In this document: piece after piece, positions 25,466 through 32,987 of the stretch
Layout of the letters: each line of letters opens with the position of its first letter
How positions within the stretch are numbered: position 1 is the first letter of the stretch
Assembly: GCA_021154885.1 (NCBI GenBank)
Contig: JAJKHS010000136.1
Location: 1 to 64,000 of the forward strand
Direction of reading: 5' to 3'
Length of the DNA: 64,000 nt
DNA from: Thermoanaerobaculum sp.
GTDB lineage: Bacteria; Acidobacteriota; Thermoanaerobaculia; Multivoradales; UBA5704
Notes under the pieces: model-generated
Databases searched by the model: none
Seen by the model: the letters and a program-made list of their open reading frames with translations, nothing else
Told to the model about the DNA's origin: nothing
Made by a program: the position numbers and the translations under genes

Positions 25466-26110
25466 ATGAGGAGGCACTTCATGGCGACACGCAAGGGACT
25501 GCCGTGGGCGCTCGTGGCGAGCGTGGCGCTGACCCTGGCCCTGGGGCTGGCGGTCGAGAGCCGCGGCCAGGAAATCACCTGTTACTGCCGGCTCGCCCTG
25601 GCGAGCGGCTCCGATCCTCTGACCGGCGGCCTGGAGATCCAGGATTGGAAGGAGCTCCACGTTTACGACAAGAGTCCGTTCGAGATGCTGGAATACCAGG
25701 TGAGGGACTGCACGAACCGGTGCATCGAGAGGGCGCAGCAGGACCCGGCGTTCTCCGATCCGACCGGGCTCTGCCGGAAAGTAGGCCGCCCGTTCGACGG
25801 CAAGAGGCAGGCGGTCGCGCGGGTCGACGAGAATCCGCCGGTGCGAGCTTTCTTCGTCCCGCTGAAATGCTGCCCTGCAACGGCCGGCCCGGTCTCCTGT
25901 CCCGCCGGCTGGACCTCCGACGCGAACGGCCCGGGGACCCTCAAATGCCGGCGCAACGCCGGCCATCTCGCGGCCGAGCCGCTGCCGCCGAACGGCACGC
26001 CGGTCGGCGCCTGGGGCATCGTGCTCGGTGCGGACGTCTGGCAGTGGGGTCCGCCGGCGTCTGCGCCAGCGGGCGCGGGAGCGCCCACCGAGTTTCGGCC
26101 CTGCGCCTGA
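25466..26110 (+). CDS. Exported cysteine-containing protein, unknown
   Basis: The 214-residue protein has a signal peptide (LPWALVASVALTLALGLAVE, cleavage near SRGQE). The mature part has eight or more cysteines (ITCYCRLAL, RDCTNRCIE, LKCCPATAGPVSC), suggesting disulfides in the periplasm or outside the cell. No family is recognised. It is convergent with the RiPP precursor genes; a 14-bp hairpin separates the two. Confidence 0.72.
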   Translation: MRRHFMATRKGLPWALVASVALTLALGLAVESRGQEITCYCRLALASGSDPLTGGLEIQDWKELHVYDKSPFEMLEYQVRDCTNRCIERAQQDPAFSDPTGLCRKVGRPFDGKRQAVARVDENPPVRAFFVPLKCCPATAGPVSCPAGWTSDANGPGTLKCRRNAGHLAAEPLPPNGTPVGAWGIVLGADVWQWGPPASAPAGAGAPTEFRPCA

Positions 26111-26114
26111 AAGC

Positions 26115-26149
26115 CGAAGGGGAGGGCGACGAGGCCGCCCTCCCCTTCG
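26115..26149. terminator. Bidirectional terminator-like hairpin
   Basis: CGAAGGGGAGGGCG (26115-26128) pairs perfectly with CGCCCTCCCCTTCG (26136-26149) around a 7-base loop. It sits between the stop of the exported protein and the end of the RiPP operon, where both strands need an end. There is no T-tract on either side. Confidence 0.55.
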
Positions 26150-26168
26150 TCAGGGCGTGAAGCCCGCG

Positions 26169-26330
26169 CTACTCGTTGTCGCCGTCCCGCTGGAAATCAG
26201 GGTTCGGGTTGGCGGTCTCGTAGATCGTGGTGGCCGTCTGGGTGCCGAACGTCGCGGAGATCCGCTTCGTCTCGGTCGCAGTCAGCGGCCGGAACAGCCC
26301 GTCGCCGAGCCTTTCCATCTTCTTCTTCAT
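26169..26330 (-). CDS. Graspetide-type precursor peptide 2 (GwsA-like)
   Basis: The 53-residue peptide begins MKKKMERLGDGLFRPLTA and ends DFQRDGDNE. It is paralogous to the neighbouring 55-residue peptide. Shared positions are the MKK(K/R)ME leader start, GLFRPLTA or KLFRPLTA, R-I-(S/T)-A, a T-x-T-A-x-T-x-x-E-T core, and the RDGDNE end. Hydroxyl (Thr) and carboxyl (Glu/Asp) side chains in the core are what ATP-grasp enzymes join into ester or amide rings. AAAGGAG precedes the ATG. It is the last gene of the operon, 31 bases after peptide 1. Confidence 0.82.
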   Translation of the reverse strand: MKKKMERLGDGLFRPLTATETKRISATFGTQTATTIYETANPNPDFQRDGDNE

Positions 26331-26361
26331 TCAGGGCTCCTTTCGTGCAAAACGCGACCGG

Positions 26362-26529
26362 CTACTCGTTGTCGCCGTCGCGAATGTAATCGTGGGCCTC
26401 GCCGTAGGTTTCCCGCAGCGTGATGGCGGTGTCGGTGACGGGGGTGAACCCGGCCGTGATCCGCTGCTGCTGCGCGGCAGTGAGCGGCCGGAACAGCTTG
26501 TCGTCGAGACTCTCCATCCTCTTCTTCAT
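26362..26529 (-). CDS. Graspetide-type precursor peptide 1 (GwsA-like)
   Basis: The 55-residue peptide starts MKKRMESLDDKLFRPLTA, with a probable leader to about residue 27 and a core TPVTDTAITLRETYGEAHD followed by YIRDGDNE. Its ATG overlaps the stop of the SPASM maturase gene (ATGA), so precursor and maturase are translationally coupled. AAAGGAG lies upstream. No GG cleavage site or signal peptide is visible, so release of the core, if any, would need an external protease. Confidence 0.85.
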   Translation of the reverse strand: MKKRMESLDDKLFRPLTAAQQQRITAGFTPVTDTAITLRETYGEAHDYIRDGDNE

Positions 26530-27617
26530 TCGGGAGCTCCTTTCGTGTGAATGCCGGCGGGCACGTCCGCCGGCGGCTGCCACTCGGCGGTGTAGGGGTC
26601 GTAGGTGCACTTCGACGGTTTCGAGTAGAGGTCCGCCGCGTCGCGGAGGTAGGCGCGGCAGTCGGTGCAGACGTAACGGAACTCGCAGTCCCTGCAGATG
26701 GCGATCTGGTCCTTGTTGATCGACCAGAGGGCCGCGAAGTCGCGTTGCGCGAGGGCGCTGTGCAGCGACACCTCGCGCACGTTGCCGAACGACCGGGTCA
26801 TCGAGGGGCAGTTCTTGATCTCGCCGCGGGCGTCGACGGAGAGCTTGCGGTTGAGGCAGGTGTTGTGCTTCTGACCCTCGGCAAAGGTTTCGAAGTCGAC
26901 CACGAAGTAGCCCGGATGGATCTGGCCGCAGCAGCGGGGGGAGTCGATGACCTCGGTGCGGTATTCGATCGTCACGCCGGTGCGCAGCGGCGGCATCTGG
27001 CGTCGCTCCGGGGCCGAGTGGACGACGATCCGGCTGATCCGCGGGTGCTCCCGGGCGAGGCCCTCCAGGGCGTCGGGTGTGAGCTCGGGGCCGTGGCCCG
27101 CCAGCAGGTCGATCGAGCGCAGGCGGCCGTGGCGCGCCGCCTCCAGGATGGCGCGCAGCTCGCGCAAGGAACAGCGATGGAAGCAGCGGACCTCGAGGGC
27201 CTTGCAGCCGAGATCGTCGAGCTGGCGCAGGATGGCGCCGTAGTCGTGGCGCGAGCCTTCGTCGACGTCGAGGATGGCGTTGGTGATCCGCTCCGGCGTC
27301 TCCCAGGCGAGGTCGAGGGCGGGGAAGCGCTCGGGGTCGCTGCTCCAGAAACCAAATTCATGGTGCAGCAGGAAGGCGAAATATTCGTCGATCTCCTCGT
27401 CGTACTCGTGACCGTAGATCGCCTTGATCTCCGCCACCGTCTTGCCGGCGTGCTCGCTCAGGATCTCGTACAGGCCGTTGGGGATGAATTGGAAGGACTG
27501 GCGCTGGAGGTCGCAGACGACGCTGCGGCGCGCCCCCTGCACCGGGATGCAGCAGGCGAAGAGGGTGAAGACCGGCTCACGGTTCGCGCTCGCCGCGCCG
27601 GGCTCAGAGGTCGTCAT
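26526..27617 (-). CDS. Grasp-with-spasm SPASM-domain peptide maturase (GwsS-like)
   Basis: The 363-residue protein has a C-terminal SPASM-type cysteine cluster. It includes CLNRKLSVDARGEIKNCPSM and ICRDCEFRYVCTDCRAYL (last 90 residues), which would bind auxiliary iron-sulfur clusters. The canonical radical-SAM CxxxCxxC motif is not seen; the middle has GCKALEVRCFHRC instead. This fits the known grasp-with-spasm subfamily, whose SPASM partner is not a standard radical SAM enzyme. It starts inside the end of the 70-residue gene and overlaps precursor 1. Its exact chemistry is unknown. Confidence 0.83.
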   Translation of the reverse strand: MTTSEPGAASANREPVFTLFACCIPVQGARRSVVCDLQRQSFQFIPNGLYEILSEHAGKTVAEIKAIYGHEYDEEIDEYFAFLLHHEFGFWSSDPERFPALDLAWETPERITNAILDVDEGSRHDYGAILRQLDDLGCKALEVRCFHRCSLRELRAILEAARHGRLRSIDLLAGHGPELTPDALEGLAREHPRISRIVVHSAPERRQMPPLRTGVTIEYRTEVIDSPRCCGQIHPGYFVVDFETFAEGQKHNTCLNRKLSVDARGEIKNCPSMTRSFGNVREVSLHSALAQRDFAALWSINKDQIAICRDCEFRYVCTDCRAYLRDAADLYSKPSKCTYDPYTAEWQPPADVPAGIHTKGAPE

Positions 27618-27816
27618 CTTGGCGGCAGCACTTCGAGATCGGTTTGCGGAAGCTCACGCAGACGTAGCCGCCGGCGCGGTAGGGCCGGCTGTCGACGAGG
27701 CGCATGATGGTGGCGACGCGGGTCGGCGACGCGTGGAGGAAGCGGTAGCTCACGGGCGCGAGCTGCCGGGCCTCCGGCGAGAGGCGTTCAAAAAGGGTTT
27801 TACGCTCGTCGCCCAT
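27604..27816 (-). CDS. 70-residue unknown within the grasp-with-spasm operon
   Basis: It overlaps both maturase genes, by 17 bases upstream and 14 downstream, and has AAGG before its ATG. The sequence begins MGDERKTLFERLSPEAR and ends FRKPISKCCRQDDDL, with an arginine-rich middle. It has no signal peptide or membrane segment. It could be an accessory leader-binding protein or a third substrate, since the CC and DDD tail is unusual. I do not recognise a family, and a non-coding shadow is not fully excluded. Confidence 0.55.
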   Translation of the reverse strand: MGDERKTLFERLSPEARQLAPVSYRFLHASPTRVATIMRLVDSRPYRAGGYVCVSFRKPISKCCRQDDDL

Positions 27817-28819
27817 CGGCCGCCTTGCGCATCAGGAGCTGCGCGACTTTCTTTTCCAGTCCATAGTTGCAGGGCTTCGAAACCATTCCAAACTGCCCGA
27901 CGGGGTTGATCTCCAGGAACACCTCGCGGCCGTCGCGCCCCTGGAGCAGGTCGAGCGATCCTGTCTCCAGGCCGAGGTCGGCCATCAACCGGTGGATGCG
28001 CTCTTCGGTCGGCGGGCTCAGGCGGTAGGGCACCATGCGGTTGGGCCGCTCGCGGTTGTAGTGACGGAAGTCGGTCTGTGTCTGCGGATCGGTCTGCGAG
28101 AAGATCGCCATGGCATGGCATTCGCCGGCGAGATAGAAGATCCGCAGCTCGTAATCCTTGTCCACTTTTTCCTGGAAGAGCGAGGGGGCGAAGCGCTCGG
28201 GCAGGGCGTCGACGGCCGCGAGGTCGAGGGCGGTGGTGAAGAGGAAGTGGGAGCGCTCCCCGTCGAGGAACATGTCGACCTCGCCGGCCGGCTTGGTGAT
28301 TACCGTGCCGTGCGCGGCGCAGAAGCGGCGCAGGGCCTCGCGCTCGGTGGTCACCAGGGTGGCGGGCGTGAGGAAGCCGGCACGGGCGGCGCGGGTCAGG
28401 GTGTCGAGCTTGTTGAGGCTGGCGCGGTGCGGGTGGCTGAGCCAGGGGAGGCCGGCGAGGCGCGAGAAGACGAAATCGCTGAGCTTGCGCGACTCCAGGG
28501 TGAGATGGCGGCGGAGCTCGAAGTCGAGCCTGAGGGTGTCCGCCGCCGGCTCCGCGAGCAGGCTCGAGGCCATCTCGGCGCGCCGCTCGTGGAGCCAGCG
28601 CCGGAACCAGACCGCCTCGGCCGAGGAGAGCGGCAGCTCGGCGCCGCCCACCTCGAAGGCCAGGTCGGCCGTGTCGTCCTCGACCCGGAAGCGCAGCGCG
28701 GCGCCGCCGTCGACGTCCTCGCCGTTGAGGCGGACACAGGACTCGCCCAGCGCCTCCAGCCAGTCCATGACCTCTTCGGTCGTGGGCTCCATGGAGGACT
28801 GGCTGAGAATGAGGATCAT
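27800..28819 (-). CDS. Grasp-with-spasm ATP-grasp peptide maturase (GwsG-like)
   Basis: The 339-residue enzyme has an ATP-grasp fold. RLAGLPWLSHPHRASLNKL leads into the ATP site, TVITKPAGEV follows, then SLFQEKVDKDYELRIFYLAG, and the C-terminal metal-binding part with LDLLQG, EVFLEINPVGQFGMVS and KPCNYGLEKKVAQ. The NPVGQF and NYGLEKK motifs match the family that makes ester or amide side-chain bonds in graspetides. It is the first gene of a minus-strand operon. GGAG lies seven bases before the ATG. Confidence 0.9.
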   Translation of the reverse strand: MILILSQSSMEPTTEEVMDWLEALGESCVRLNGEDVDGGAALRFRVEDDTADLAFEVGGAELPLSSAEAVWFRRWLHERRAEMASSLLAEPAADTLRLDFELRRHLTLESRKLSDFVFSRLAGLPWLSHPHRASLNKLDTLTRAARAGFLTPATLVTTEREALRRFCAAHGTVITKPAGEVDMFLDGERSHFLFTTALDLAAVDALPERFAPSLFQEKVDKDYELRIFYLAGECHAMAIFSQTDPQTQTDFRHYNRERPNRMVPYRLSPPTEERIHRLMADLGLETGSLDLLQGRDGREVFLEINPVGQFGMVSKPCNYGLEKKVAQLLMRKAADGRRA

Positions 28820-32066: not shown

Positions 32067-32987
32067 ATGGCCAGAAAAATTCGCTACGTCCCCAAACCCA
32101 AGACCCTCGTGCACGTCACCAGCCGGACCCTCCAGGGGAGATACCTGTTCCTCCCGGGTCCACAATTCAACGACATCTTTCTTGGCACCCTCGGGAAGGC
32201 CCAGCGGGATTGCGAAGTCGAGATCAACGCAGTCTCAGTGCTCTCCTCTCACTTCCACCTGCTGCTGACGGTCGATGACGCCCAACAGACGGCGAATTTC
32301 ATGCGGAGCTTCAAAGCCAAGCTGGCGATCGAAGTCAACCGCCTGACTGGTTGGGAGGGAACGGTCTTCGATCGCCGCTACGAGATGGCCGTCGTTACCG
32401 ACGAAGAGGGCGCCCAGGCCGGAATCCTGAAGTACGTCCTCAGCCAGTCCGTCAAGGAGCAGCTTGTAGAACGGCTTGAGGACTGGCCCGGCGTCCACTC
32501 CATTCGGGCGCTGCTCGAAGGGATTCCCCTGACCGGCCATTGGTTCAACCGCAGCCAGGAGCAGGCGGCCCGCGATCGTGGAGAAGAGTTTAGCCGGCTC
32601 CGGTATGCGACGGAAGAGACTGTGATCCTTTCCAAAATTCCCTGCTGGGCTCATCTTTCCGACGAGGAATACCGCCGTCGCATTGCCTCTCTTCAAGAGG
32701 ACATCGAAGCCGAAGCTGCCGTCGCGAGAGAAGCGGCGGGGACCCAGGTCCTGGGAATCGAGAAGATCCTCGCTCGGGATCCTCAGTACCGTCCCCAGAA
32801 GCTCGCCCGTTCGCCCGCGCCTCTCGTGCATGCCGCGACCCAGGCGGCACGGAAGGCGTTCTACGAGGCCTACTCCTGGTTCGTGAGGGCCTTCCGCGAT
32901 GCCGCCGAGAAGCTGCGACGAGGAGATCGAATGGCCCCCTTTCCCGCCGGCAGCTTCCCCCCTGGCCTTCCCTTCGTCGCCGGATAG
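32067..32987 (+). CDS. REP-associated tyrosine transposase (RAYT)
   Basis: The 306-residue protein belongs to the Y1 (IS200-like) HUH superfamily. The HUH pair is in SSHFHLLLTVDD (about residue 71). The catalytic tyrosine is probably in ILKYVLSQSVKEQLV near residue 127. A helical C-terminal extension (SDEEYRRRIASLQEDIEAEA) is characteristic of the longer RAYT type. It is a single chromosomal gene with no inverted repeats around it, fitting RAYTs that serve REP elements. Part of its C-terminal region is repeated in decayed form at 37584-37858. Confidence 0.88.
   Translation: MARKIRYVPKPKTLVHVTSRTLQGRYLFLPGPQFNDIFLGTLGKAQRDCEVEINAVSVLSSHFHLLLTVDDAQQTANFMRSFKAKLAIEVNRLTGWEGTVFDRRYEMAVVTDEEGAQAGILKYVLSQSVKEQLVERLEDWPGVHSIRALLEGIPLTGHWFNRSQEQAARDRGEEFSRLRYATEETVILSKIPCWAHLSDEEYRRRIASLQEDIEAEAAVAREAAGTQVLGIEKILARDPQYRPQKLARSPAPLVHAATQAARKAFYEAYSWFVRAFRDAAEKLRRGDRMAPFPAGSFPPGLPFVAG

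Follow-up and report, generated by a model that had tools for sequence, protein, structure and literature searches.

A compact operon of five genes occupies the minus strand (28819..26169) of the window, a stretch of 64,000 nucleotides from Thermoanaerobaculum sp. All the open reading frames claimed in the original prediction are present, together with the serial overlap of the ATP-grasp, 70-residue and SPASM genes and the ATGA overlap of peptide 1, and the five-gene operon is confirmed as real and well preserved (Table 1). Both peptide genes are preceded by a strong Shine-Dalgarno sequence (GAAAGGAG). The hairpin 3' of peptide 2 has a folding energy of -43.1 kcal/mol (z -4.4); it lacks a U-run and was not called by the terminator scan. 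A promoter scan at the operon, which is uninformative for a high-GC genome, found none. The flanks are ordinary, with a DinB-like protein upstream, a YaiI/YqxD family protein past the convergent neighbour, and DUF1304. Elsewhere in the window, positions 32067-32987 (+) encode a 306-residue protein that by eye resembles a REP-associated/IS200-like transposase (HFHLLL motif).

Table 1. Features of the operon and their positions in the window.
Feature	Position	Strand	Remarks
ATP-grasp peptide macrocyclase (339 aa)	27800..28819	minus	TIGR04192; homologous to solved macrocyclases
LPL-type auxiliary protein (70 aa)	27604..27816	minus	APVSYRFL motif, C-terminal FRKPISK; overlaps both neighbours
SPASM protein (363 aa)	26526..27617	minus	TIGR04193; RRE-like N-domain, degenerate barrel, 7-Cys SPASM domain
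Precursor peptide 1 (55 aa)	26362..26529	minus	Overlaps the end of the SPASM gene by ATGA
Precursor peptide 2 (53 aa)	26169..26330	minus	Paralogue of peptide 1
Terminator-like GC-rich hairpin	26105..26168	minus	3' of peptide 2; common to convergent plus-strand gene

In NCBIfam profile searches, the ATP-grasp enzyme scores 258.3 bits against TIGR04192 (cut-off 230) and the SPASM protein 332.7 bits against TIGR04193 (cut-off 175); the earlier assignment to the grasp-with-spasm class thus holds at the curated cut-offs for both maturases. The ATP-grasp protein does not group with non-RiPP ligases, the RimK and glutathione synthase profiles yielding 13-22 bits. It is homologous over its full length to the solved graspetide macrocyclases AMdnB, CdnC and 5ig8/5ig9, and residues K176, R226, D250, R252, D290, E303 and N305 are invariant in 24 relatives. 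C317, in the motif SKPCNY, is likewise invariant in 24 grasp-with-spasm ATP-grasp proteins, at a site where AMdnB reads RDLNY. By its profile matches, the operon is a grasp-with-spasm graspetide locus; the class corresponds to branch 5 of PMC8939145 and is probably graspetide group 14 of PMC13097080. The window genome holds three such loci, namely the window locus, one on contig C13 (L008) and one on contig C81 (L009). Contig C32 encodes one more ATP-grasp peptide maturase of graspetide type, the fourth in this genome (393 aa; L010 5390-6571, minus strand); its nearest models, TIGR04187 and MvdC, give 204 and 197 bits, in both cases below the cut-off.

Precursor peptides, conservation and distribution

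Peptides 1 and 2 are paralogous (56% identity, E 1e-18), and a congeneric MAG (Acidobacteria gp7 AA5, locus L011) has the identical order of the five genes with both peptides conserved, which argues that the operon is not a product of chance; the proposal of two related precursors is supported. The L011 locus is itself matched by L060 in G397, which is classified in one genus with the window genome. Between the window and L011, dN is lower than dS in all five genes, with dN/dS of about 0.40 for the ATP-grasp gene, 0.37 for the 70-residue gene, 0.38 for the SPASM gene, 0.20 for peptide 2 (75% amino acid identity, dN 0.15, dS 0.76) and 0.76 for peptide 1 (55% identity, dN 0.31, dS 0.41). Judged by substitution rates, the coding sequence of the operon is under selection, which is purifying on the enzymes. 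A decaying or silent locus is very improbable: peptide 1 evolves fast, and the window peptides lack a Gly run at the leader-core junction where the congener still has one (GGGGG and GGG) and the C13 peptide has GGG at its leader end, but the five frames are intact, the enzymes are under purifying selection, and the genome carries further loci of the same class. The C13 locus has its own MKRHKMEKLDNELFTPLT... precursor upstream.

The T-x-T-A-x-T-x-x-E-T core of the original prediction is kept in all four peptides of the window and L011. Over these four, the core reads T-x-T-A-x-T-[IL]-x-E-T-x5-D-[FY]-x2-D-G-D-N-E, and the terminal DGDNE is common to them all, as RDGDNE in three and HDGDNE in one. 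Four Thr (T1, T3, T6, T10) and five acids (E9, D16, D20, D22, E24) are invariant, and the leader follows the pattern MKK(K/R)MExLxxxLFRxLT. The ATP-grasp enzyme would phosphorylate the side chains of the five core acids, and the hydroxyls of the four Thr residues would attack them to form ester rings, with a loss of about 18 Da each. Counting against such Thr-acid rings, E9 precedes a core Thr, whereas the usual order places the nucleophile before the acid. There is perhaps one chance in four that the pattern departs from full Thr-acid esterification, through fewer rings, another pairing or the modification of one peptide. Macrocyclases of the ATP-grasp type form rings of many topologies, through ester or amide links (PMC13097080), and the conserved Thr and acid sets allow many pairings, but the four Thr and five acids stay in register in all four sibling precursors.

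Neither peptide matches any NCBIfam or Pfam model, including the precursor models TIGR04139, TIGR04149 and PF14406, and most branch 5 precursors likewise miss the known models (PMC8939145). The window leaders read LFRPLT and do not contain Phhx(1,2)h, a motif that about half of graspetide leaders have and that is not required (PMC8939145); in branch 5 it is usually absent. Neither window core contains Cys, so thioether chemistry on these peptides appears unlikely.

The earlier observation that no transporter or protease is seen stands for the locus, which has no exporter; three C39-peptidase proteins occur elsewhere in the genome, and the contig of the C81 locus carries one of these, an NHLM exporter. 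The missing transporter therefore need not be a problem, and export in trans of the window peptides is possible from the gene content; one C39-peptidase exporter of the genome would then remove the leader and export the product. Two stretches of contig C81 (L079 918-11259 and L009 1750-3099) are rich in RiPP genes, with an NHLM exporter pair (TIGR03796, TIGR03797) beside two genes that look HlyD-/TolC-type, and an active-looking radical SAM/SPASM maturase with a Nif11-type precursor.

Grasp-with-spasm is rare in Acidobacteriota: among the 396 genomes of the phylum that were searched, the TIGR04193 cut-off is passed in the window genome only, and one congener was added as a carrier by the search of relatives. 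Elsewhere in the phylum, weaker TIGR04193 matches reach at most 91 bits, under the cut-off, and mostly cover the SPASM end; they were not counted as members. The cut-off is passed in 12 of 395 genomes of a Bacteroidota sample (the phylum of L014) and in 4 of 298 of a Gemmatimonadota sample (the phylum of L012). In the trees, Acidobacteriota and Gemmatimonadota form one supported group (99/93 for the ATP-grasp protein, 98/99 for the SPASM protein), and the window sequence adjoins L011 in both. One genome of the Gemmatimonadota sample (L108) has a SPASM-family frame of 497 residues, over the usual length, possibly a fusion or an upstream read-through.

Motifs and predicted fold of the SPASM protein

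None of 45 distinct SPASM relatives has the CX3CX2C motif, the GGE/GGD-P motif is absent from 44 of them, and the window protein does not match PF04055; a radical SAM/SPASM protein of the same genome, the positive control, shows CNFRCTYC and GGEP and matches PF04055. The SPASM domain itself is well recognized, with 29.6 bits against TIGR04085 (cut-off 27) and a score above the cut-off of PF13186. Simultaneously, CX2CX5C..C is kept in all 45 relatives, and the whole seven-Cys signature CX9-15GX4C-CX2CX5CX2-3C-C is kept in 37 of them, the window protein and 36 others, while some relatives have one cluster only. Outside the SPASM domain, C23 alone is invariant among the Cys of the relatives, leaving too few for a cluster. 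Judged by the motif that defines radical SAM enzymes, the SPASM protein is not one of them.

A search of PDB sequences with the SPASM profile found no true relative, and the fold was read from the C81 homologue as modelled by AlphaFold on a 24-row alignment, with block pLDDT mostly >90 over the SPASM protein. Residues 101-188 of the model resemble the ends of TruD (Z 8.0, 87 residues, 2.9 Å) and MccB (Z 7.0) that bear an RRE; the SPASM protein has no sequence-profile match for an RRE, and the assignment comes from fold similarity at Z of about 8. Residues 194-426 resemble PqqE (Z 13.0, 191 residues, 4.7 Å), and also SuiB, CteB and anSME. Radical SAM enzymes carry their cluster in the loop after the first strand of the barrel, and in the model this strand is followed by a seven-residue loop without Cys. 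Because CX3CX2C is missing, the barrel loop is Cys-less and the N-terminus is RRE-like, the model suggests a pseudo-radical-SAM protein that carries a leader-binding domain. NCBIfam provides a precedent for this state in another family, TIGR04347, which is named pseudo-SAM/SPASM.

Two other roles for this protein have to be weighed, each of them unlikely. In the first, it would be a radical SAM maturase that is active through a cluster site of unusual kind and adds a second C-C, C-O or thioether link atop the ester rings. The family is called radical SAM in PMC8939145, which supposes such modification, its closest folds are PqqE, SuiB and CteB, and most relatives keep the SPASM clusters intact; however, both the cluster motif and the PF04055 match are lacking, as is the GGE/GGD-P motif in nearly all relatives, a single Cys is invariant outside the SPASM domain, and the window precursors offer no Cys as a thioether donor. 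In the second, which we consider equally improbable, it would not be a leader-binding adaptor but would gate the ATP-grasp enzyme by transferring electrons or sensing redox state. The auxiliary 4Fe-4S sites are retained without a catalytic cluster, and C317 is invariant in the PCNY motif of the ATP-grasp enzyme, but the RRE-like N-terminal fold points to peptide binding, the operon contains no gene for a redox partner, and not all relatives keep both clusters. A redox or binding role, suggested by the intactness of the SPASM clusters, is left unexplained by the adaptor reading.

The LPL-type protein and a proposed mechanism

A small open reading frame of 53-111 residues lies between the ATP-grasp and SPASM genes in every grasp-with-spasm locus compared. 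A strict LPL-like motif of the hPhx[YF] type occurs in 13 of 21 small proteins and is absent from the other 8 (shuffles: mean 0.15, maximum 3), and the C-terminal K-x-[IVA]-[SAV] (KxIS) occurs in all 21 (shuffles: mean 1.9, maximum 7). The 70-residue protein had been listed as unknown; by position and LPL/hPh-type motif it is an LPL-type protein, the LPL family having no curated model to score. The motif reads APVSYRFL in the window protein and MPVNYRFM in the C81 protein, both close in sequence to PFFARFL, the microviridin leader motif whose helix binds and activates MdnC (PMC7823629). The model of the 70-residue protein has helices at residues 14-19 and 22-26, at the APVSYRFL stretch, with good local confidence. 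A PqqD-like chaperone role was proposed by the LPL authors, who also remarked that the LPL motif resembles Phhx(1,2)h of precursor leaders (PMC8939145).

In the C81 locus, a single frame of 435 residues joins the LPL-type part to the SPASM protein (L009 6397-7704, minus strand), and this fusion, seen once, in one draft genome, suggests that the LPL and SPASM proteins work together. MAFFT placed the small proteins on the SPASM end of the fusion and those rows were left out of the model alignment; as a result, pLDDT is <50 in the LPL portion of the C81 model, where the interface is not readable. A candidate GG-type precursor of 66 residues lies upstream of the C81 ATP-grasp gene, at L009 8829-9029.

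On balance, we favour a reading of these sequences in which the ATP-grasp enzyme alone would make the Thr-Asp/Glu ester rings and the SPASM and LPL proteins would together form its leader-binding partner. The SPASM protein would perform no radical chemistry on the window peptides, although this step is less secure than the ring chemistry. With similar reserve, its RRE-like N-domain may hold the precursor leader, and SPASM and LPL, the latter through its PFFARFL-like APVSYRFL helix, may dock the precursor on the ATP-grasp enzyme and activate it. The Arg of PFFARFL is bound by E191, D192 and N195 of MdnC (PMC7823629), whose equivalents are Ala in the window enzyme, and thus LPL may be wrongly cast as the activator; E and D recur at these sites in several relatives. 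Conservation of the MdnC leader contacts was accordingly rejected as proof of LPL binding. A partner requirement is known from the rosaritides, whose formation by MirB needs the partner protein MirC (PMC13097080). More tentatively, the system could be a split-leader RiPP, in which the RRE of a pseudo-radical-SAM/SPASM adaptor holds the leader and LPL supplies the ATP-grasp-activating helix in trans. Just as tentatively, that helix could correspond to the one located within the leader of other graspetide precursors.

Relation to known systems and significance

The operon is ordinary in kind: it is a new member of the grasp-with-spasm class, which it extends to a further phylum, and no model covers its precursor family. 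Like the branch 5 loci (PMC8939145), it combines two maturases above their cut-offs with a small LPL-type gene directly upstream of the SPASM gene, an MKK-type leader and a core rich in Thr and Asp/Glu. However, its host belongs to Acidobacteriota and not Bacteroidota, its precursors lie 3' of the SPASM gene, match no known model and have Cys-free cores and a leader end without GG, and the locus has no exporter.

Compared with the microviridin-type ligases (MdnB/MdnC, AMdnB, CdnC), the ATP-grasp enzyme shares homology over its full length and conserved active-site-type residues, but the window leader contains neither PFFARFL nor Phhx(1,2)h, a similar motif sitting on the separate LPL protein, and the leader-binding residues of MdnC are not kept. 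The rosaritide mir cluster (PMC13097080) is an analogue of mechanism, as its synthetase likewise depends on a co-encoded partner; MirC is a PPIase-type chaperone, unlike SPASM or LPL, and homology of the partners is not claimed. PqqE, SuiB and CteB resemble the SPASM protein in overall fold, with the barrel, the SPASM domain and, in the window protein putatively, an RRE-like domain, whereas the catalytic CX3CX2C and the SAM-binding GGE-type motif are missing from the window protein.

The literature searched contains no account of a product from any grasp-with-spasm system and refers to the SPASM partner as a radical SAM enzyme. Branch 5 has been called Bacteroidetes-specific and highly specific for Bacteroides (PMC8939145); the present loci extend the system to Acidobacteriota and Gemmatimonadota, the maturases of which form one clade. 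The NCBIfam name reads 'SPASM domain' and not 'radical SAM/SPASM', and the absence of the site may already be familiar to its curators. Should the SPASM protein prove to be a leader-holder without catalytic activity, the radical SAM pathway reading of such loci, 190 of them in PMC8939145, would need correcting. Of note is the combination of a family-wide loss of the radical SAM site, a putative leader-binding fold and a leader-like motif in trans, which leads to a testable split-leader hypothesis, and the three small loci of the window genome are suited to testing the roles of SPASM and LPL.
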